From assembly GCF_001282785.1 (NCBI RefSeq), contig NZ_CVUA01000001.1, positions 1,860,001 to 1,924,000 on the forward strand: 64,000 bases of DNA. The letters run 5' to 3'. Below the pieces are notes generated by a model. It was not told the DNA's origin and did no database searches. It worked only from the letters and a program-made list of their open reading frames with translations. Source of the DNA: Halolamina sediminis (GTDB taxonomy: Archaea; Halobacteriota; Halobacteria; Halobacteriales; Haloferacaceae). The first letter of the stretch is position 1. Each line of letters opens with the position of its first letter. Positions 17,246 through 36,285 of the stretch are shown piece after piece. Both the position numbers and the translations under genes were made by a program.

Positions 17246-17514
17246 CGCATCCCCCTGTTCTGGTAGGCGTAGACGGTTCCGCCGAGAAGACCGATACCGA
17301 GGCCGAGCGCGGCCCCGAACCCGAGCGGCATGACGATGCTCTTGGCAACGTCAGTCGCGGTGGCCGTCACCTCGCGCTGCTGATCGGCCGCCGCGGCGAG
17401 TTCGTCGATCGTCTCCGGGTTTCCGGTCGTATCCCCGGTGAGCGTGAGCACGGCCCCCGCAGCGACGAGGAGAAGGACGATCACGGCCACGACGCCGAGG
17501 AGACGGCGGTTCAC
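17242..17514 (-). CDS. Small two-helix membrane protein, tubulin operon gene 2
   Basis: A 90-residue protein with membrane helices at about 5-27 (LGVVAVIVLLLVAAGAVL) and 60-82 (IVMPLGFGAALGLGIGLLGG), joined by an acidic helical loop of roughly 35 residues that should be outside. The start is a GTG in a GTGA overlap with the stop of the tubulin-like gene at 17511, so the two are translationally coupled. The glycine-rich second helix resembles those of the next gene. It may be an accessory subunit of the larger membrane proteins. No known family. Confidence 0.68.
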   Translation of the reverse strand: MNRRLLGVVAVIVLLLVAAGAVLTLTGDTTGNPETIDELAAAADQQREVTATATDVAKSIVMPLGFGAALGLGIGLLGGTVYAYQNRGMR

Positions 17515-18674
17515 GTCGTCACACCTCCATCGTGTCGCTCGGCGACCTCCTCGATCTCCTGCAGCCGGTCGATGTCCTCGCGAGCGTACGTGAGAAGTGT
17601 CGTAAACGAAGCCAAGTTGCGTTCCGTCAGCGTCATCCCGAGGTTCACCTCCGGACAGTAGGAGTCGAGGAGGTTCCGCACCACCGACGCCTGAATGCGG
17701 TAGTCGTCGTCGACGATGTACGGTGCCGGCGCGCGGATCTGCCCGATCGCCTTGCGCGTCTCTTCGGGGACGAGCCCGTCGACGCTCCGTTTCGACACCG
17801 CGATCCGGGACAGCGCCGCCCCGTCGACGGATTTCCGGCCGAGGAACGGCAGGATGTAGCCGGGCAGCGTCCGCGTCATCGTGATCGAGCGGCCCAGCGC
17901 CGCGTAGCCGACCTCCTCCTCGGGCAGGCGCAGCGAGGTGACGACGTCCCGGAGGTCGATGATCGGCGCGTCGAGGTCCTCGTAGCTTCCCGGGTCGATC
18001 CGTTCGAGGATCGGCCCGGAGATGAGGTCGACGATGGCCGAGGCGACGTACTCGTTGTACTCGTGGAAGCGCCCCTCGGCGGCGTCCTCGTAGGCGAGCC
18101 GCTGATTGTCGACGAGGATCATCCCGTCGATGTGCTCTTCGAGCCGGTCGAGCCCGTACATCGTGTTCGCCGCCTGCCGCGTCGCACGAACCTCGTCGTC
18201 GTCCTTCGTGGCTCGCGCGGTGTTCGGAAGCACCCCCACGGCGATGACGTGTGTCGTCTCCTCCCCGTACTCCCGGAGTGCCTCCGCCAGGTGCGGCGCG
18301 ATCCCACAGCCCGTCCCACCACCTAACCCCAAGAACAGGAACGCGTACGGCGGCGTCTCGTCCCCGAACCGTGTCCGGTACGCGTCACGGATGGCGTCGC
18401 CCTGATCGGCGACGACTTCGTCGGCCTTCCGGGGGTCACGGCCGAACCCGCCGGCGACCTGTTCCTCGAATCCCGCCGTGTTCCCCGGCACGAGGCCGAC
18501 GCCTTCGGCGATCCCGTACCACGCGTCCCGTTCGATGTTGGAGAGGTTCTGCAGATCCCGTATAGTGGAGTTGAACGCCACTGGCGTCGCGAGCTGGGCC
18601 ACACGCTGGTGGTCGAACACCGCGTCGACGATGGCACACCCCGCTTGGCCCGCACCCACGAATAGGTATGGCAT
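17511..18674 (-). CDS. CetZ/FtsZ-like tubulin-superfamily GTPase, tubulin operon gene 1
   Basis: A 387-residue tubulin-superfamily protein. It begins FVGAGQAGCAIVD (GxGQAG, residues 7-12, the N-terminal loop style of haloarchaeal CetZ), has FNST at 34-37, the signature loop GLGGGTGCG (116-124), the VDNQRL/EYNEYVASAI helix 6-7 region, and a T7-like APIIDLRDV (236-244) with the NxDxxD acidic pair kept. Nucleotide binding and hydrolysis are therefore likely. It differs enough from standard CetZ that I give no gene symbol. As the promoter-proximal gene it should be the most abundant product of the operon. A TATA-like box lies 30-39 bases upstream of the ATG. Confidence 0.85.
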   Translation of the reverse strand: MPYLFVGAGQAGCAIVDAVFDHQRVAQLATPVAFNSTIRDLQNLSNIERDAWYGIAEGVGLVPGNTAGFEEQVAGGFGRDPRKADEVVADQGDAIRDAYRTRFGDETPPYAFLFLGLGGGTGCGIAPHLAEALREYGEETTHVIAVGVLPNTARATKDDDEVRATRQAANTMYGLDRLEEHIDGMILVDNQRLAYEDAAEGRFHEYNEYVASAIVDLISGPILERIDPGSYEDLDAPIIDLRDVVTSLRLPEEEVGYAALGRSITMTRTLPGYILPFLGRKSVDGAALSRIAVSKRSVDGLVPEETRKAIGQIRAPAPYIVDDDYRIQASVVRNLLDSYCPEVNLGMTLTERNLASFTTLLTYAREDIDRLQEIEEVAERHDGGVTT

Positions 18675-18810: not shown

Positions 18811-18818
18811 CTTTTTTT
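18811..18818 (+). promoter_or_regulatory. Putative promoter of the GTPase/propeller pair
   Basis: A T-rich stretch (CTTTTTTT) is centred about 32 bases upstream of the ATG at 18847, the spacing of a haloarchaeal TATA box for a leaderless transcript. This favours the ATG at 18847 over the in-frame TTG at 18817, which would lie upstream of the transcription start. Confidence 0.4.
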
Positions 18819-18846: not shown

Positions 18847-21048
18847 ATGGCGAACTCCCTGAAGAAGCTGATCCGGAGCCCGTCTTTCGTCGAGTTCGTC
18901 TCCGGAATCCTCTACCTCTCTATCGTTGGCGTCGTCGCGTCGTTCCTGCTCGAAAGCCTCTGGCTGCCGGCGTGGGAGAGCCGTGGGATCGCCTTCCGAA
19001 CGGTGCGCCTGATCGGGCGGACGATCGGGACGTTCTTCCCGAGCGAGAGCTTCCTGTTCGTGCTCCCGTTCCCGTTGGGGGTGTTCGTTGGCGTCTCACT
19101 CGTCTGGTTCGTCGACACGTACAAGCGGTACCAGGCAATCGTTCTCTGGGCCGGCATCGGCATCGTGGTCGCACAGCTCCTGATCATGGGTCGGCTGTTC
19201 GACGTCCTGATCCAGAACTTCTCGCTGCTCATTCTCTCGTCGCTCGTCCTCGGCGTCGTCGCCGGGATCCAGATCGGCGGCATCCCGCTGATCGGGTGGC
19301 TCCGCCGGGACCGCGACCACCTGATCGGCAGCCCGCCGAACGAGTTCGACCGCGCCCCGCTGGCGGTGTGGGGGATCCTCCTCCTCATGGTCGTCGCCGG
19401 CCTCGTCGACGCACACCTCTCGCTCGGGTTCGGCGGCGGCCCCGTCGAACCGACCCGGGTCGAGCAGCTCGGCGGGAACGTCGTCGGGAGCGCGATCCTG
19501 CTCGGCGCGTTCTGGAAGTTCACCGAGTACGAGTCCGAGATCAGGACGGTCCAGATCGGCCCCGCACGGGGCGGGAAAACCGCGATCCTGGGCGGGCTGT
19601 ACAACCACCTCGAAACGGAGAACAGCATCACGATCCTCCGCGGCGGGGAGTTCGACACGGCGATCAGCAACCGGATCGAGAACGGCGAGTTCCCGCCACG
19701 GAACCAGCTCCGCGAGGTGGATCGGGGGCGACAGTACCGGTTCCTCGAGATCCCGTTCGTCTCCGACCGCCGGTTCTTCCGGAAGAAGGTCGTCGTCGGG
19801 ACCCTCGACTACCCGGGCGAGCTCATCACCGGCGGGTCGAACTGGAAGCCGCTCGACGAGGAGCTCGAAGCGGTCAGACAGGAGGAGCGACACGACCTGA
19901 TACTCGACCACGAGTACATCGAGAACGAGGTCGACGTGCCGGTGCTGGCGCCCGCGGCGTTGAAGATCGACGCCGCGCTGGGGCGGCTCAGTTCGGCGTT
20001 CTCGTCGACCGACCAGTGGGAGGAGGCCGAACGCGTGCTCGAGAACGCCGAGTCGCTGTCGTACCAGGAGACGGTCCCGCCAGAGGCGCTGGCGAACGCG
20101 CTCTCCCGGCTCGTCGACGGAGCCGACACGATCCTGTTCACCGTCCCGCTGGACGATTTCGCCCAGCGTGCCGCGGCGGCGGGACAGATGCCACAGCACA
20201 CCGACGCCTACTGGCTGCGGCGGACCGGCGGGCAGTACGAGGTGTACAGCACGGACGGCGAACTGGTCGGGCGGTACGACACGCTCGACGATCTGGAGTT
20301 CGAGGCGATCCTCGAGGAGGCCCCCGAGGTCATTACCGACCTCCCCCGGTACGACCATCCGGAGCTCGGCGACGTGCGGCTGGTGATCGAGGGGCGGCCG
20401 GCTCGGACCCCCTCCAGCGAGTACCGCGAGGTGTACGAGGGGATCGTCGACCAGTGTGACACCGGGGCGAAGTCGTTCGTCTGGGTCGCGTCGATGTCGG
20501 ACTACGCGAAGCGACACTTCACCGCCGCCTACACCGCCTACGTGGGGAACAACGAGACGCGGAGCAGTCTGAACCCCACCGAGATCCTGAGCAGCGAGAC
20601 GCTCCCCAACCACCCGTCGCTCCCCCACGAGGACGGCGTGTACACCACGTTCGCCGACTGGATCGAGACCCAGTACCTGGACGTGCCGGAGAACTGGGAC
20701 GGCTACCGGCGGTCGCTCCGGGAGCGAACCCAAGAGGAGTTCCTCTACCCGCTCTGGTACGACGTCGAGTCGGACGAGCAGGGCGAGCGAATCAAGACCG
20801 GGAGTCGCCCCATCCTCCAGGGCGCCGACCGGCTGATCGACCGGATCGAGGGGCGGACGCTCGTCCGGACCTACCCGTGGCGGTCCCACCTGCCGGGTAG
20901 CGAGTCACTGTCGAAGTCCGAGGAGATGGTCGAGAACATGAGAGAAAGCCTCAACACGGAGCGATCGGCGAACGAGCTCGGGATCGAAACCGAGAACGAG
21001 GAGGTCGGGGTTGGAACCGAAAGCGAACACGCCGAGGCGGACCGATGA
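18847..21048 (+). CDS. Polytopic membrane protein with P-loop GTPase domain
   Basis: The protein has 733 residues. Roughly six membrane helices fill the first 225 residues (SIVGVVASFLLESLWL, FLFVLPFPLGVFVGVSLVW, AIVLWAGIGIVVAQLLIMG and others). A cytoplasmic NTPase domain follows: Walker A GPARGGKT (238-245), a switch II/Walker B-type GTLDYPGEL (D321), and a later FVWVASMSDY strand where a G4 NKxD motif would be expected, here degenerate. This pattern fits a TRAFAC-like GTPase, although nucleotide specificity cannot be read with certainty. It is divergent from the tubulin operon and overlaps the next gene (ATGA). The protein at 27705 looks like an inactive sibling with the same topology. Confidence 0.8.
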   Translation: MANSLKKLIRSPSFVEFVSGILYLSIVGVVASFLLESLWLPAWESRGIAFRTVRLIGRTIGTFFPSESFLFVLPFPLGVFVGVSLVWFVDTYKRYQAIVLWAGIGIVVAQLLIMGRLFDVLIQNFSLLILSSLVLGVVAGIQIGGIPLIGWLRRDRDHLIGSPPNEFDRAPLAVWGILLLMVVAGLVDAHLSLGFGGGPVEPTRVEQLGGNVVGSAILLGAFWKFTEYESEIRTVQIGPARGGKTAILGGLYNHLETENSITILRGGEFDTAISNRIENGEFPPRNQLREVDRGRQYRFLEIPFVSDRRFFRKKVVVGTLDYPGELITGGSNWKPLDEELEAVRQEERHDLILDHEYIENEVDVPVLAPAALKIDAALGRLSSAFSSTDQWEEAERVLENAESLSYQETVPPEALANALSRLVDGADTILFTVPLDDFAQRAAAAGQMPQHTDAYWLRRTGGQYEVYSTDGELVGRYDTLDDLEFEAILEEAPEVITDLPRYDHPELGDVRLVIEGRPARTPSSEYREVYEGIVDQCDTGAKSFVWVASMSDYAKRHFTAAYTAYVGNNETRSSLNPTEILSSETLPNHPSLPHEDGVYTTFADWIETQYLDVPENWDGYRRSLRERTQEEFLYPLWYDVESDEQGERIKTGSRPILQGADRLIDRIEGRTLVRTYPWRSHLPGSESLSKSEEMVENMRESLNTERSANELGIETENEEVGVGTESEHAEADR

Positions 21049-24215: not shown

Positions 24216-27200
24216 ATGGCTCGTTGTAACACCCCCGACACGCTGATTGGCGTCGGAGGGGGCGGGAGTAAGGTGGTTTACAAGTTCATGGAACAGGACT
24301 GGATCCTCGAGGACGTCCTGGACACCGAGAACTACGAACGGGACGAACCGGGGGAGCTCCAGGCCTACACGATCGACACGGCCACGGGAGACGACTGGCA
24401 CGACGAGCGCTACGGGCCGATCAACCGAAAGATCCGGAGCCTGCTCGACGATATCGACACGGCGAACGATCTGCTGGATATGGGGATCGAGCAGCGCAAC
24501 CTCGTCGAGTCCATCCCGAACCGATGGACCGAGAAGGGGAACATGACCGCCCCGGGGGCGATCAAGGAGCTGCTGGAGCGGCGGAACGCGAACAACTGGT
24601 GGCTGAAAGACGACCGCGAACCGCTCTCGCACGTCCAGCGGGAGGGGTTCAGCGGCGGCGTCTACCGGCGCCGTGCCGTGAGCAAGGCACTCTACCACAT
24701 CAACGAGCACGTCGGCGACTCCGTCGTCCCGAACAACCCCGGGGAGACCGTCATGGTGACGACGCTCGGGGGCGGGACGGGGTCGGGGATCTTCATCGAC
24801 ATGGCGATGGAGATGGAGGCCGACAGCATCGACCTGTTCGCCGTCATTCCCTCCGTCGGCGACCAGACGAAACAGAAGACGAACGCCTTTGCCGCGCTCT
24901 CCGAGCTCGAGTACCTCTGGATCAACGACGAGAGCCCGTTCCGGTCGGTGACGTTGGTCCCCCACGTCGGGAGCGTGAGCGACGACGACTTCGAGATGGC
25001 GACCGTCCGGAGCATCCTCGCCCACCAGAACGGGATGATCGGCGGGAACCTGTACGACTCGCTCAACCCCCAAAGCACGAACGGCCCGCCGGAGTTCTCG
25101 GCGTTCTCGATGGCCGTCCCGTACACGATGGAGTACGAGGTCGACCAGCGCGAGAGCGCCCGAGAGGAGGTCGAAGAGACGCTCTCGGAGAAGCTCGACG
25201 AGCTCACTGCCGAAGGGTACCTCTACAAGGTCGTCGAGACGTACCTCCAGGAGAACTTCCCCTCGGCGATGGAGGCCGCCGAACAGGACGTCTCGACCGA
25301 GCCGGTCGTGAACCAGGCGATGGAGCTCCGGAACCGGTACGCGGACGTCCGCGACACGCTGCTCACCGACGACGGGCTCCGGGTCGCGGGGTTGGACGAC
25401 GAGCGCAAGACGATCCGGGATCAGGTGCAGGTGCAGGCCAACGGCGAGGTCCAGCTCCCGGACGACGTGGCGGAGCCGGAAGCGGCCCGACAGTTCATCG
25501 AACAGGCGCCGAGCATCGCACACATCGAGCCTAGCGACATCGACAACGAGGGCGCCCTCGGCTACCTCCTCGCGTCGGTCGTCCGGAAGGAGATCGGGAA
25601 CATCGAGAAGCGGTGGCAGCTGTTCAAGAAAATCTCGGCGATCACCGCGGAGAACGTCGAGGGCTCTCACGCGCTGACGGTCTCGCAGGCACGGATGGTG
25701 CGGGACGTGCTCCGGGACATCGTACTCGACCCCGATCAGGAGACGTACCACCACGTTCAGAACCCATCCTTCGACGAAACGCTCGAACAGGTCGAAAGCG
25801 CCGTGAGCCAGCTCGTCGAGGAGCACGACCAGCTGGTGACGCTCCGGGACCGCGTCGACGACGAAGTCGACGACTGGATACAGACGTGGCATGAGAAGGT
25901 TCGAAGCGACACGGCCCAGGTCGCGGCGGTCAACGAACACCGCGCCGACATCGTCTCCCTCGTCGACGAGCTGGAGTCGGCGATCGAGGCCCGCCTCACC
26001 ACGATCAACGACGCGACCACCGAGAGCGGGATGCGGGGGAGCCTGAACTTCGACTCCTTCGGCACTCTCAACGAGAAGCTCGACGCCGTCGGCGCCGAGC
26101 GGATCGACGGCGAGGGGATCAGGGAGGCGCTCGAGCTGCTGGTCGACATCAAGACGGCAGTGTTGGAGCACAACTCCGGCATCCTCCCGGGGCGCCCGGA
26201 CAAGTCCGAGGAGTTCGACAACAAGTATCGGGAGCTCCAGACGCTCGGCGACTGGTTCACGATCAACCCTCAGCGCAGCTCGAAGGACGTTCGTGACCCG
26301 TTCAACTGTATCTTCGATCCCTCGACGATCCAGCGGGAGGCCCAGATCGACCACTCCTACGACGCAGCCATCGACCGCATGACCGCCGCCTTCGAGGAGC
26401 AGTTCACCGACGCCGGGACGCTGATCGAGTTCGGTCCCGAGGACCTCGCGATCGACGACCCCGTGGTCGAGAAGACGGTTCCGACCGACCGCAACCCCTC
26501 GGCGCTACGCGAACAGCTCGTCGACGATCTCGGGTCGAGCAACGCCGCCGACCCGCACTTGCTACTGGACGACGTGATGCCGCTCGACGCCGGCAGCACG
26601 CGCGGCGACAGCGTTTCCCACCACCTGTACGACCGCTACATCCAGCCGTTCGACGAGGAGATCGACGACGTGAAGCAGGGGCTCCATATCCGTGGTGGCA
26701 ACGACGTCGTCAGCACGGGCGGCACCGTAGAGGCGCTCGAACGGCTCCGTGCGATCGCCAGCGTCCACGCCGAAGCCGTCGACGAGGACGTGTCGGTGCC
26801 CGAAGTCACCCCCCCAGAGGACACCGAGACGTACGGTCGCGACTTCGCTCGCGGCTACGAGGGGATCTACGACTTCGACGTCGAGCCGTCCGTCCCCGCG
26901 AACAACGGCGACCACCCGTACCTTCGTCGCGGGGAGACCAACCCGGAGGACTTGGTCAGCTCGCCGCGGAGCATCGAGGAGTCCGCGGTGCTGGAGAACC
27001 ACGAGGACGAGATCTTCCGGTTCTTCGGGAACTCCCTCGAAGCCATGTTCGAGAACAAGCACGGGCGGGCGCCGATCAACGACTTCTCGCCGCGGGCGCT
27101 GAAGGATCGCTCCGAGAGCGACCCGACGTACGACGGGCTCCGGTACGTCTCGGCGTACATGTCCCGGGCGCTGAAGTACGTCGACGATCCCACGACGCCG

Positions 27201-27689
27201 GCGGATAACCCGCTCCACCCGGCCGTCACCGAGACGCTGGAGGATCACACGATGATCAACTCGGAGACGTACCACGAGGAGCAGTACGACATCGGGAACC
27301 CCGACGAGATCACGATGGTCACCTTCATCGGCGGGCTCACGATGGACAACCTCAGCGTCGTCACCGATCCGGACGGCTACCAGCCGACCTACCGACAGGT
27401 CAGCCGGAACAACTCCTTCATCCCGACCCACCACACTGTCGGGATCGGCGGGATGTGGCAGTACTACCACCGGCTCCACGAGTGGACACGCGAGTCGGAC
27501 GACGACGTGAACTACGGCGCCTACGTCTACCGCGACGACGTTCGGCCGCTCCACCACGACCAAGAGTTCGTCCTCCACATGAACGACGACTCCGACGCGG
27601 AGGTCAAGGAACTGCTCAACGGGATGTTCGGCTCCGGCCGGTTCCCGAGCATGCTGGAGCGGGAAGACGAGCAGGCCGAGCAGCAGTAG
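24216..27689 (+). CDS. Giant tubulin-like (Tubulin_2-type) GTPase
   Basis: A 1157-residue protein. The first ~380 residues resemble the tubulin/FtsZ nucleotide domain: N-terminal loop LIGVGGGGSKVVYKF (GVGGGGSK at 12-19) and signature VTTLGGGTGSG (181-191), followed by FIDMAMEMEADSIDLFAVIP. The loop is nearly identical to that of the tubulin-like protein at 12913. I cannot locate a clear NxDxxD T7 loop, so hydrolysis is less certain than binding. The remaining ~770 residues are largely helical and acidic, with a compact C-terminal domain (about 960-1140, MVTFIGGLTMDNLSVVTDP, HHTVGIGGMWQYYHRLHEW). Such size suits the large tubulin-like family found with membrane systems in prokaryotes. It is probably co-transcribed with the gene at 27705. 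Confidence 0.82.
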   Translation: MARCNTPDTLIGVGGGGSKVVYKFMEQDWILEDVLDTENYERDEPGELQAYTIDTATGDDWHDERYGPINRKIRSLLDDIDTANDLLDMGIEQRNLVESIPNRWTEKGNMTAPGAIKELLERRNANNWWLKDDREPLSHVQREGFSGGVYRRRAVSKALYHINEHVGDSVVPNNPGETVMVTTLGGGTGSGIFIDMAMEMEADSIDLFAVIPSVGDQTKQKTNAFAALSELEYLWINDESPFRSVTLVPHVGSVSDDDFEMATVRSILAHQNGMIGGNLYDSLNPQSTNGPPEFSAFSMAVPYTMEYEVDQRESAREEVEETLSEKLDELTAEGYLYKVVETYLQENFPSAMEAAEQDVSTEPVVNQAMELRNRYADVRDTLLTDDGLRVAGLDDERKTIRDQVQVQANGEVQLPDDVAEPEAARQFIEQAPSIAHIEPSDIDNEGALGYLLASVVRKEIGNIEKRWQLFKKISAITAENVEGSHALTVSQARMVRDVLRDIVLDPDQETYHHVQNPSFDETLEQVESAVSQLVEEHDQLVTLRDRVDDEVDDWIQTWHEKVRSDTAQVAAVNEHRADIVSLVDELESAIEARLTTINDATTESGMRGSLNFDSFGTLNEKLDAVGAERIDGEGIREALELLVDIKTAVLEHNSGILPGRPDKSEEFDNKYRELQTLGDWFTINPQRSSKDVRDPFNCIFDPSTIQREAQIDHSYDAAIDRMTAAFEEQFTDAGTLIEFGPEDLAIDDPVVEKTVPTDRNPSALREQLVDDLGSSNAADPHLLLDDVMPLDAGSTRGDSVSHHLYDRYIQPFDEEIDDVKQGLHIRGGNDVVSTGGTVEALERLRAIASVHAEAVDEDVSVPEVTPPEDTETYGRDFARGYEGIYDFDVEPSVPANNGDHPYLRRGETNPEDLVSSPRSIEESAVLENHEDEIFRFFGNSLEAMFENKHGRAPINDFSPRALKDRSESDPTYDGLRYVSAYMSRALKYVDDPTTPADNPLHPAVTETLEDHTMINSETYHEEQYDIGNPDEITMVTFIGGLTMDNLSVVTDPDGYQPTYRQVSRNNSFIPTHHTVGIGGMWQYYHRLHEWTRESDDDVNYGAYVYRDDVRPLHHDQEFVLHMNDDSDAEVKELLNGMFGSGRFPSMLEREDEQAEQQ

Positions 27690-27704: not shown

Positions 27705-29078
27705 ATGAACCTTCCTTCCAGCCAAACCCGAAAAGAGATCGCCGTCGTCGTCACGGCCTTTGTCAGCCTCGCCGTCACGATACCGGCCGTCGCCGGCGCC
27801 GCGTCGACCGTCTGGGCTAACGGCGGCCTGCTCCGAACGCTGTCGGGGGCCGTCGCGGGCGTCGCGGGCGTGACGCTCGACTTCCCGGTCGTCATCCTCG
27901 GCGGGCTCCTGGCGGGCTGGTTCGCGCTGTTCCTGTTCGACGGGACCAAGCGAATCCAGGCCGGCCTAGTGTTAGTCGTGGCGCTGGTCGCGCTGCTGCC
28001 GACGCTCGGGAATCTCGGGCGGGTGATCGGTGCGGTGCAGCGCGAGTTCCTCACCTTCGGCGTCGCGGTGCTGCTCGGCGTGCTTTCCGGTGGTGTCACC
28101 TCGCGAGTGTACGGTGTCAAGGTCCCACACCAACTCTCGATCCGCGAGCGGCTCCGGTGGATCCAGTTCCCCGTCGCAAGCCGGGCGTTCTTCTACACGG
28201 TGTCAGTACTGGTGTTGCTGGCCGTCGTGCAGTACGTCCAGTACGCCACCTCGATCCTCGACACGGTCGTGACGCTGCTTGCGGGGGCGGTCGCCGTCTT
28301 CGCGCTGTCGGTGTTCATGACCTACGAGTACCAGAAATCCGTCGTGACGATCACGGCGGAGAACGACCGGCGCGCCGAGCCGTACGTCCTCGGCGGGCTG
28401 TTCGACCACGCCGAAACCGACCGCGAGGGGTTCCCAATCGACGGGAACCATCTCCTCCGACAGGCTGCGACCGCGAAGAACGAGGACTCGCTACCGGACG
28501 GGTTCGACTCGCCAGTGTCGTTCGGCTTCCTCTCGGGCGACGTGACCGAGCGAACCGCGAAGGTCACGAGCGAAGGGTTCAGCACCCGTGACGTGAACCG
28601 GAACCGACTGGAAGAGCGACTGCGCGAGCGCAACGGCGCGTACGCGCAGACGAAGCAGCTACTCCGGTGGATCCGCCACCACCTCGTTCTGATCATGCCT
28701 GCGTTCGTCCGCAACGTGCTCGTCTACCAGGAGGGGACGGTGCTCAATCGGCTCGACCACGCCGACACGCTGTTGCTGCTGACGCGAACACCGGGCGCCG
28801 ACGAGGAGCCGCCGGCGGGTGCCGATCTGTACGGACTGTTGACCGAGCTGTACGCCAACGATCCGGGCACCGACATCGTGATCGCGACGAGCGACGCCCG
28901 GGAACCGGCGAACGAGTTCGACGAGGGGATCGACGTCACGATCGACCCGTTTCGATCCGAAGTCGCCGACCGCCTCGGGATTCCTCCCGAAGGCGTCGGC
29001 GTGGAGTATCAGGTCGTCCCCACGAACCGCTTCGACGGCGACGACGAGGGGTTCGACGCGCTCATCGACTCACTCTGA
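27705..29078 (+). CDS. Polytopic membrane protein, probable pseudo-GTPase sibling
   Basis: The 457-residue protein has about six membrane helices in its first 205 residues, then a soluble domain that lines up without gaps with the GTPase at 18847. VLGGLFDHAETD (228-239) matches ILGGLYNHLETE just after Walker A, HADTLLLLTRTPG matches GADTILFTVPLDD, and DIVIATSDA matches the SFVWVASMSD strand. Where the active protein has GPARGGKT, this one has residues ENDRRAEP, so the catalytic Lys and Thr are replaced by Glu and Pro. It should therefore not bind nucleotide in the usual way. It begins 15 bases after the giant tubulin gene, with which it probably forms an operon. Similarity was judged by eye. 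Confidence 0.72.
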   Translation: MNLPSSQTRKEIAVVVTAFVSLAVTIPAVAGAASTVWANGGLLRTLSGAVAGVAGVTLDFPVVILGGLLAGWFALFLFDGTKRIQAGLVLVVALVALLPTLGNLGRVIGAVQREFLTFGVAVLLGVLSGGVTSRVYGVKVPHQLSIRERLRWIQFPVASRAFFYTVSVLVLLAVVQYVQYATSILDTVVTLLAGAVAVFALSVFMTYEYQKSVVTITAENDRRAEPYVLGGLFDHAETDREGFPIDGNHLLRQAATAKNEDSLPDGFDSPVSFGFLSGDVTERTAKVTSEGFSTRDVNRNRLEERLRERNGAYAQTKQLLRWIRHHLVLIMPAFVRNVLVYQEGTVLNRLDHADTLLLLTRTPGADEEPPAGADLYGLLTELYANDPGTDIVIATSDAREPANEFDEGIDVTIDPFRSEVADRLGIPPEGVGVEYQVVPTNRFDGDDEGFDALIDSL

Positions 29079-34865: not shown

Positions 34866-35264
34866 ATGGCCGAGGACGCCGACAACGAGACGGTACAGGT
34901 CAAGACGCGGGTACCCGCCCACCAGCGTGAGCGGTGGCGGGAGGCTGCCGACGAACTCGGGATGAGTCAGAGCGAGTTCGTCCGGACGATGGTACAGGCG
35001 GGCCGGAGCGGCTTCGAGCCGGCCGACGAGCCGGGGGGGACGAGCAACCCCGAGAAAGGCAGTCCTTCGGGCTCGAACCCCAGGGGTGACACCCTCGAAA
35101 CGCGTGTCCACGAAGTCCTCTCTTCAGAGGAGGCCGTCGGCTGGGACGAACTGGTCGACGCGGTGCTGGGCGACTTCGAAGATCGGCTCGACCGGATCAC
35201 ACAGGAGTCAGAGCAGATCCGCTACAGCGGCAGGGACGGGGGGTACGTGCTCGATGGCGAGTAG
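34866..35264 (+). CDS. DUF5805-type ribbon-helix-helix protein
   Basis: The 132-residue protein has a ribbon-helix-helix N-terminus (VQVKTRVPAHQRERWREAAD followed by ELGMSQSEFVRTMVQAGR), a Gly/Ser/Pro linker and a C-terminal winged-helix-like part (VHEVLSSEEAVGWDELVDAV). It matches the haloarchaeal DUF5805 family as I know it. Proteins of this fold bind DNA as dimers. The start is the ATG at 34866; a longer frame to 34836 adds unlikely residues. Its end overlaps the integrase gene by 11 bases, so the two are co-translated, and it may regulate or assist the recombinase. Confidence 0.78.
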   Translation: MAEDADNETVQVKTRVPAHQRERWREAADELGMSQSEFVRTMVQAGRSGFEPADEPGGTSNPEKGSPSGSNPRGDTLETRVHEVLSSEEAVGWDELVDAVLGDFEDRLDRITQESEQIRYSGRDGGYVLDGE

Positions 35265-36285
35265 GTCTCCCGACGCCGAGGTGGCCGACCCGGTCAACTA
35301 CTACCTCGAAGATATGGAGATGCACGGTCGGGCCGAGCGCACCCGCGACGCCTACGAACGAGTGCTTCGGGGGTTCGCCGAGTTCCTCGAAAGTCGGTCC
35401 ACCGATCCCGGATCCGCCGGCCACCGGGACTGTCTGGCGTGGCTCCACTCCCTGCGGTCGGAGCTGTCGCCGAGCACCGTCGCCACCTACGCCACGACGG
35501 TCAATCGCTTCTACGACTACATGAACCGGGTGGGCGCCTTCGAGGAGAACCCCATGGCGCTGGTGATGGAGGAGATGGACGAGTCGATCGAGAAAGACCC
35601 CGAGCGTCGGGACGTCGACGTGGCGACGATGGGGGAGTTCCTCGGTCGGATCTCTCACCCGCTCCATCACGCGATCGTCCTGACGCTGTTGAAAACCGGG
35701 ATGCGCGTCGGCGAGCTGTGTAACCTCGACTACCGGGACCTGCGACTCGCCGAGCCCGGCCTCGAAGGGTACGACCTCGACGGCCGGCCGCAGCTCGACG
35801 GCCGTGGCGACGCGATATACGTCGACAGCGCGCCCGCACGCGGGGAGGAGTACAACGGTGAGGTCCGCGAGGAGTCGAACAAGCGTAAGCGGTCGACGGT
35901 GATCCCCGTCGACGACGAACTCCGGCGCGGACTCCGGCGCTGGCTGGCGATCCGGCCGGACTCGCCGTCGCCGGCGGAGCCGTTGTTCCTCTCGACCGCG
36001 GGCGACTGGGGGGAACGGCTCACCGCACGGGCGGTCAGACACTACGTCCGGAACTACGCCGAGGAGATGGGCTGGTACGAGCCCGGCGCGGGAGCGGGCG
36101 AGAACGTCACCCCCCACTACTTCCGGCACTTCTTCACCACGCACCTCCGTGATCGTACCGGCGATCGCGGCGTCGTGAAGTACCTCCGAGGGGACGTGGC
36201 CAGCGACGTGATCGACACCTACACCCACAACTGGGGGGACCAAGTCCGAGAGACGTACGTCGCGAACATCTACCGGTTCGATTGA
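35254..36285 (+). CDS. XerC/D-type tyrosine recombinase
   Basis: A 343-residue tyrosine recombinase. An N-terminal SAM-like domain (YYLEDMEMHGRAERTRDAYE, LSPSTVATYATTVNRFYDYM) precedes the catalytic domain with R151 (TGMRVGELCNL), H288 and R291 (HYFRH) and the nucleophile Y323 (IDTYTH). The second His/Trp position is Asp in LRGD, as in several haloarchaeal relatives that I recall. The paired DUF5805 gene is a recurrent chromosomal arrangement, so this is more likely a housekeeping or Xer-like recombinase than a prophage integrase. No phage structural genes lie nearby. Confidence 0.87.
   Translation: MASRSPDAEVADPVNYYLEDMEMHGRAERTRDAYERVLRGFAEFLESRSTDPGSAGHRDCLAWLHSLRSELSPSTVATYATTVNRFYDYMNRVGAFEENPMALVMEEMDESIEKDPERRDVDVATMGEFLGRISHPLHHAIVLTLLKTGMRVGELCNLDYRDLRLAEPGLEGYDLDGRPQLDGRGDAIYVDSAPARGEEYNGEVREESNKRKRSTVIPVDDELRRGLRRWLAIRPDSPSPAEPLFLSTAGDWGERLTARAVRHYVRNYAEEMGWYEPGAGAGENVTPHYFRHFFTTHLRDRTGDRGVVKYLRGDVASDVIDTYTHNWGDQVRETYVANIYRFD

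Follow-up and report, generated by a model that had tools for sequence, protein, structure and literature searches.

A degenerate paralogue of a membrane GTPase conserved beside the giant tubulin gene in haloarchaea

Genes of the locus

The window analysed here is a stretch of 64,000 nucleotides from Halolamina sediminis, in which a giant tubulin gene is accompanied by an active-type membrane GTPase, by a degenerate relative of that GTPase and by a further membrane protein gene. The features referred to in this work are as follows.

18847-21048, plus strand: P0002, membrane GTPase of the active type and sister paralogue of P0001; frame open from a TTG at 18817
19558-19581, plus strand: intact Walker A motif of P0002, GPARGGKT
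19807-19821, plus strand: switch II / Walker B motif of P0002, DYPGE, whose glutamate is described as typical of DO-GTPases (PMC7159879)
21045-24047, plus strand: P0004, 1000 aa; N-terminal conserved domain, membrane helices and C-terminal region
24216-27689, plus strand: P0003, giant tubulin (Tubulin_2 / FtsZl1 type), 1157 aa; PF13809 at 36.5 bits, cut-off 27
24768-24788, plus strand: tubulin T4 signature of P0003, GGGTGSG
27705-29078, plus strand: P0001, membrane pseudo-GTPase of 457 aa, with a degenerate TRAFAC-like GTPase domain (residues ~205-457) after six N-terminal helices
28359-28382, plus strand: degenerate Walker A position of P0001, ENDRRAEP versus GPARGGKT in P0002, lacking G-x4-G-K-[ST]
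28554-28595, plus strand: switch II position of P0001, TAKVTSEGFSTRDV versus KVVVGTLDYPGELI in P0002; DxxGE lost
28872-28898, plus strand: guanine-specificity motif position of P0001, DIVIATSDA versus TKxD in single-slot GTPases; degenerate

The reading frame of P0001, from which a preliminary description of this DNA had set out, is real and lies directly 3' of the giant tubulin gene, with 15 bases between the tubulin stop codon and its start, while the start of P0004 overlaps the stop of P0002 by 4 bases. P0001 has no match to any Pfam or NCBIfam family, and PADLOC returned no match for any of P0001-P0005. In the homologue L027:12937-16080, a PQQ beta-propeller occupies the position of the P0004 C-terminal region. 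Another gene of the tubulin superfamily, FtsZ/CetZ-like (PF00091, E 1.6e-14), lies at 17511-18674 on the minus strand, divergent from P0002, and heads a minus-strand gene run that includes weak matches to Ig-like domains.

Homology of P0001 and P0002

BLASTP aligns the two proteins over 194 aa that take in both the membrane helices and the surroundings of the P-loop (E = 6e-5), and places LGGL, H and ET in common and GPARGGKT opposite ENDRRAEP, exactly as had been claimed. Because membrane helices inflate such scores, the membrane and soluble parts were scored separately against a control in which P0002 residues were permuted inside 20-residue blocks (500 trials). The full-length score was matched in none of the 500 shuffles and the soluble-domain score in one, while that of the membrane part alone was equalled by ten. 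In a profile-profile comparison of the soluble domains, the check proposed in the preliminary description, profiles built from 17 degenerate and 12 active sequences matched with 98.5% probability (E = 2e-15, 230 columns), and the later strands said to correspond, ADTLLLLTRTPG and DIVIATSDA, were aligned. A single-slot GTPase profile was matched just as well by the degenerate profile, and control profiles (reversed, tubulin and P0004-domain) reached at most 1.3% probability in this comparison. A trio of the window protein, L024 and L025 matched the active profile weakly, so that the case for homology leans on the wider degenerate family. We rejected convergent similarity of membrane helices as the source of the match, since the soluble domains match by themselves. 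Judged from these alignments, P0001 and P0002 are true paralogues.

Two details of the earlier account need adjustment. Of the approximately six N-terminal helices ascribed to each protein, hydropathy supports six in P0001 and five clear ones in P0002. The residues kept and replaced around Walker A are those reported, but the gapless register was partly luck at the loop, where the family alignment gives the window protein a three-residue insertion and where loop length differs by 0-5 residues among relatives; as GK[S/T] is missing in both registers, this correction leaves the conclusion intact.

Motif loss and predicted fold

The Walker A lysine and glycines, DxxG and TKxD are all gone from P0001 and its 16 kin (17/17), and P0001 is thus presumably unable to bind GTP. 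The degenerate copies retain the strands and a GGL[Y/F] block at the start of helix 1, and many of them keep T plus A or D at the guanine-motif position. At 28590-28740, after the switch II position and before the following strand, P0001 has a helical segment that bears basic residues and a P-x-x-x-R pattern; most of its kin share this segment, single-slot GTPases lack it, and it may face the membrane.

P0002 keeps GPARGGKT and DYPGE, with a partial deviation at the TxKD position (SMSD). The guanine motif of second, active copies is often TMAD, so that their GTP specificity is an assumption. The glutamate in the Walker B region (DYPGE / DYAGE) is present in most intact copies. PF19993 was matched by 8 of the 16 members of the P0002 alignment at E <= 0.01 (best 5.9e-7), P0002 itself matched neither PF19993 nor PF19975, and a search of its own genome with this family gave sub-threshold matches only; given this and its altered guanine motif, 'GTPase' is for P0002 a name taken from homology.

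The soluble domain of P0001 is predicted to adopt a TRAFAC-GTPase-like fold: the AlphaFold2 model (pLDDT 77.8, pTM 0.79) orders its strands and helices as a TRAFAC G-domain does, and the 50 PDB matches listed for it are all GTPases or GTPase-holding complexes, including EF-Tu, Rac, Ras, septin, atlastin and EGOC/Rag chains. The five best listed matches have E <= 0.001; TM-scores are modest (0.3-0.5). Active relatives in the alignment given to AlphaFold2 pull towards a GTPase fold, which makes the model supporting rather than independent evidence. A poor model of P0002 (pLDDT 62; weak fold matches, mainly to septins) was set aside as evidence.

Gene order among relatives

Homologues of the tubulin and the GTPases were gathered and sorted from samples of 148, 392 and 391 genomes. 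Identity of homologues to P0001 is mostly 26-40%; as the sole query P0001 found no matches in the genome contigs, and it had none among plasmids at 1e-5. The tubulin alignment search yielded 15 named loci, and no case was found in the viral contigs searched.

In the slot directly 3' of the giant tubulin gene, the member of the GTPase family is intact in 45 cases and degenerate in 17. Intact slots, which occur in haloarchaea and methanogens, consist of one intact membrane GTPase, followed in 33 of 45 loci by a P0004-like gene, and none of the 45 has a second copy nearby. Degenerate slots come from 17 haloarchaeal genomes, the window's included, all of which have a second copy. The earlier statement that P0001 is paired with the giant tubulin gene is supported, as each of the 17 degenerate copies has such a gene immediately on its 5' side.

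The second copy is intact in 16 of these 17 genomes. It lies inside the fetched locus for 15 degenerate slots and, in G071, approximately 13 kb off. In the remaining genome, G022, the second copy (L031:4016-5794) reads GPHSSGRR, with K changed to R, and the locus is without a P0004-like gene; both copies look impaired there, to go by their motifs. In the 15 degenerate-slot loci where a P0004-like gene was found, this gene comes after the second copy every time and never after the degenerate slot. Eight loci (L027, L029, L030, L035, L036, L040, L076 and L077) have the order tubulin, dead copy, live copy, P0004, an arrangement suggestive of a tandem duplication. In seven others, the window and six more, the unit of live copy and P0004 has been relocated away from the dead copy, and the couplings of tubulin with dead copy and of live copy with P0004 persist although the two GTPase genes stand apart.

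The window's cassette may itself be mobile, as suggested by a phage-type integrase gene approximately 6 kb past it (35086-36285), by the absence of the system from all six other genomes of the genus searched, and by a plasmid-borne relative. On pCBA1112-01 of Haloplanus rubicundus, genes for a propeller, the live and the dead GTPase and the tubulin follow one another in that order, not far from GrpE and Hsp70; both GTPases are annotated there as hypothetical proteins.

Phylogeny and selection

In trees computed after removal of the P-loop columns, all degenerate copies group in a single clade (100/100), whose sister is the clade of second copies (99/97). On this phylogeny the pair is the product of one tandem duplication, with the P-loop lost in one event; the 17 degenerate cases share one origin, and the counts given above do not represent 17 independent events. 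Tubulins of the double systems and six orphan giant tubulins together make up one starred clade.

For three related genomes (Halorubrum LUM.57, Halobellus Atlit-31R and G053), the degenerate gene had a dN/dS of 0.23-0.28, compared with 0.28-0.32 for the active gene and 0.32-0.38 for the tubulin, indicating that the degenerate gene is kept rather than decaying. Together with the controlled profile match, the sister clades and the loss of three motifs in 17 genomes, this purifying selection upholds the description of P0001 as a pseudo-GTPase twin. Patristic distances correlate between dead and live copies (r = 0.83), dead copy and tubulin (r = 0.79) and live copy and tubulin (r = 0.92), as is expected from joint inheritance alone; the live copy tracks the tubulin more closely than its dead counterpart, and this does not speak for the latter as the main tubulin partner.

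A proposed division of labour between the two copies

Based on the gene couplings, we infer a division of labour in which the dead copy serves the tubulin and the live copy serves P0004. The ancestral archaeal cassette would have consisted of giant tubulin, membrane GTPase and P0004-like gene, and in one haloarchaeal lineage the GTPase gene was duplicated in tandem. The tubulin-adjacent copy would then have lost nucleotide binding to become a constitutive membrane-anchored pseudo-GTPase that tethers the giant tubulin to the membrane, while the P0004-adjacent copy would retain the nucleotide switch. The two copies would probably meet through the GTPase dimer face, the live copy regulating the dead one or being regulated by it. 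We lean towards this combination of a dead tubulin-anchoring copy and a live P0004-linked switch copy, probably in contact, as having somewhat better than an even chance of being correct. In salt-loving archaea the 'dead' enzyme thus seems to be a permanent, functioning component of a little-known membrane-tubulin machine, and the whole system may act in membrane remodelling or conflict response.

A heterodimer of active and inactive copies is plausible, and gene order suits equally well an arrangement in which the dead protein serves the tubulin and the live one P0004. In its strict form, an obligate Rag-like heterodimer would make P0001 the regulatory half, with neither half having a separate role for tubulin or P0004. 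The strict co-occurrence of the dead copy with a second copy, the sister relationship of the two clades, the dead-live distance correlation and the proposal that pairs of DO-GTPases form dimers (PMC7159879) all point in this direction. However, separation of the dead and live genes in seven loci, across which the couplings to tubulin and P0004 last, argues against it, and we regard the strict form as possible but doubtful. Less likely again is that P0001 works as a switch, with a non-canonical pocket that still binds a nucleotide or some other ligand: the fold predicted to be retained, the conserved helix 1 block and the residues kept at the guanine-motif position would suit such a pocket, but loop length differs by as many as five residues among the 17 members, which share no charged or glycine pattern there. 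That P0001 is a pseudogene on its way out is highly improbable, for although all three GTPase motifs are lost and divergence is fast, the frame is open in all 17 genomes, which belong to three family groups, the dN/dS of approximately 0.25 is not above that of the active partner or the tubulin, and the degenerate copy constantly occupies the tubulin slot.

Relation to known systems

Non-catalytic or paired G-domains that act as scaffolds or regulators are known from Rag/Gtr pairs, dynein light intermediate chain and CENP-M. P0001 resembles these pseudo-GTPases and heterodimeric G proteins in this respect, and EGOC is among the matches to its predicted fold, which is where the likeness lies; it differs from all three in crossing the membrane several times and in its link to a giant tubulin.

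Two known systems come closest to the cassette. One is the FtsZl1 (Tubulin_2, PF13809) system, in which an archaeal giant tubulin-family protein is accompanied by membrane genes and by a membrane-associated P-loop GTPase (Makarova and Koonin 2010, PMC2875224). The GTPases of that system have intact Walker A/B and TxKD motifs, and the text of the paper reports no degenerate twin. It links a vWA-domain protein to the majority of FtsZl1 operons, though not all; among the window proteins scanned, which cover part of the neighbourhood, none had a Pfam match to vWA. The other is that of the DO-GTPases (PF19993, PF19975), TRAFAC GTPases with a Walker B glutamate, present as two paralogous copies in 38% of systems, for which dimers were proposed, and adjoining tubulin genes in one theme and HSP70/GrpE in another (Kaur et al. 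2020, PMC7159879). The glutamate, the two paralogous copies and the tubulin neighbour all recur here, and on pCBA1112-01 tubulin, both GTPases, HSP70 and GrpE come close together. GAP1, the partner of DO-GTPases, had no match in P0004 or ten of its relatives, and the sections of the DO-GTPase paper drawn on here make no mention of an inactive copy. Among the papers covered by a literature search, none describes a conserved pseudo-GTPase partner for this system.

The FtsZl1/Tubulin_2 giant tubulins have been on record since 2010, and our literature search found no mechanism described for them. The present family adds a conserved prokaryotic pseudo-GTPase tied to a cytoskeletal protein and offers a testable partner pair. 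With one duplication and a dead copy kept in 17 genomes, it represents a natural experiment that would separate an anchoring role from a switching role.

More speculatively, the dead membrane G-domain could be a docking receptor for the filaments of a cytomotive giant tubulin, with docking switched on and off by the live twin and a P0004 sensor, and extra giant tubulins of the same clade could form paired, alpha/beta-like filaments; we offer this only as a tentative extension. The window's genome has a second giant tubulin (G000:C1:2646797-2650021, L042), with no GTPase within the 18.5 kb fetched, which groups in the clade of tubulins that accompany pseudo/live pairs. Two tandem giant tubulin genes lie upstream of the dead GTPase at L024:10489-17690, and the further pair-carrying genomes G095, G110 and G433 possess extra giant tubulins too.
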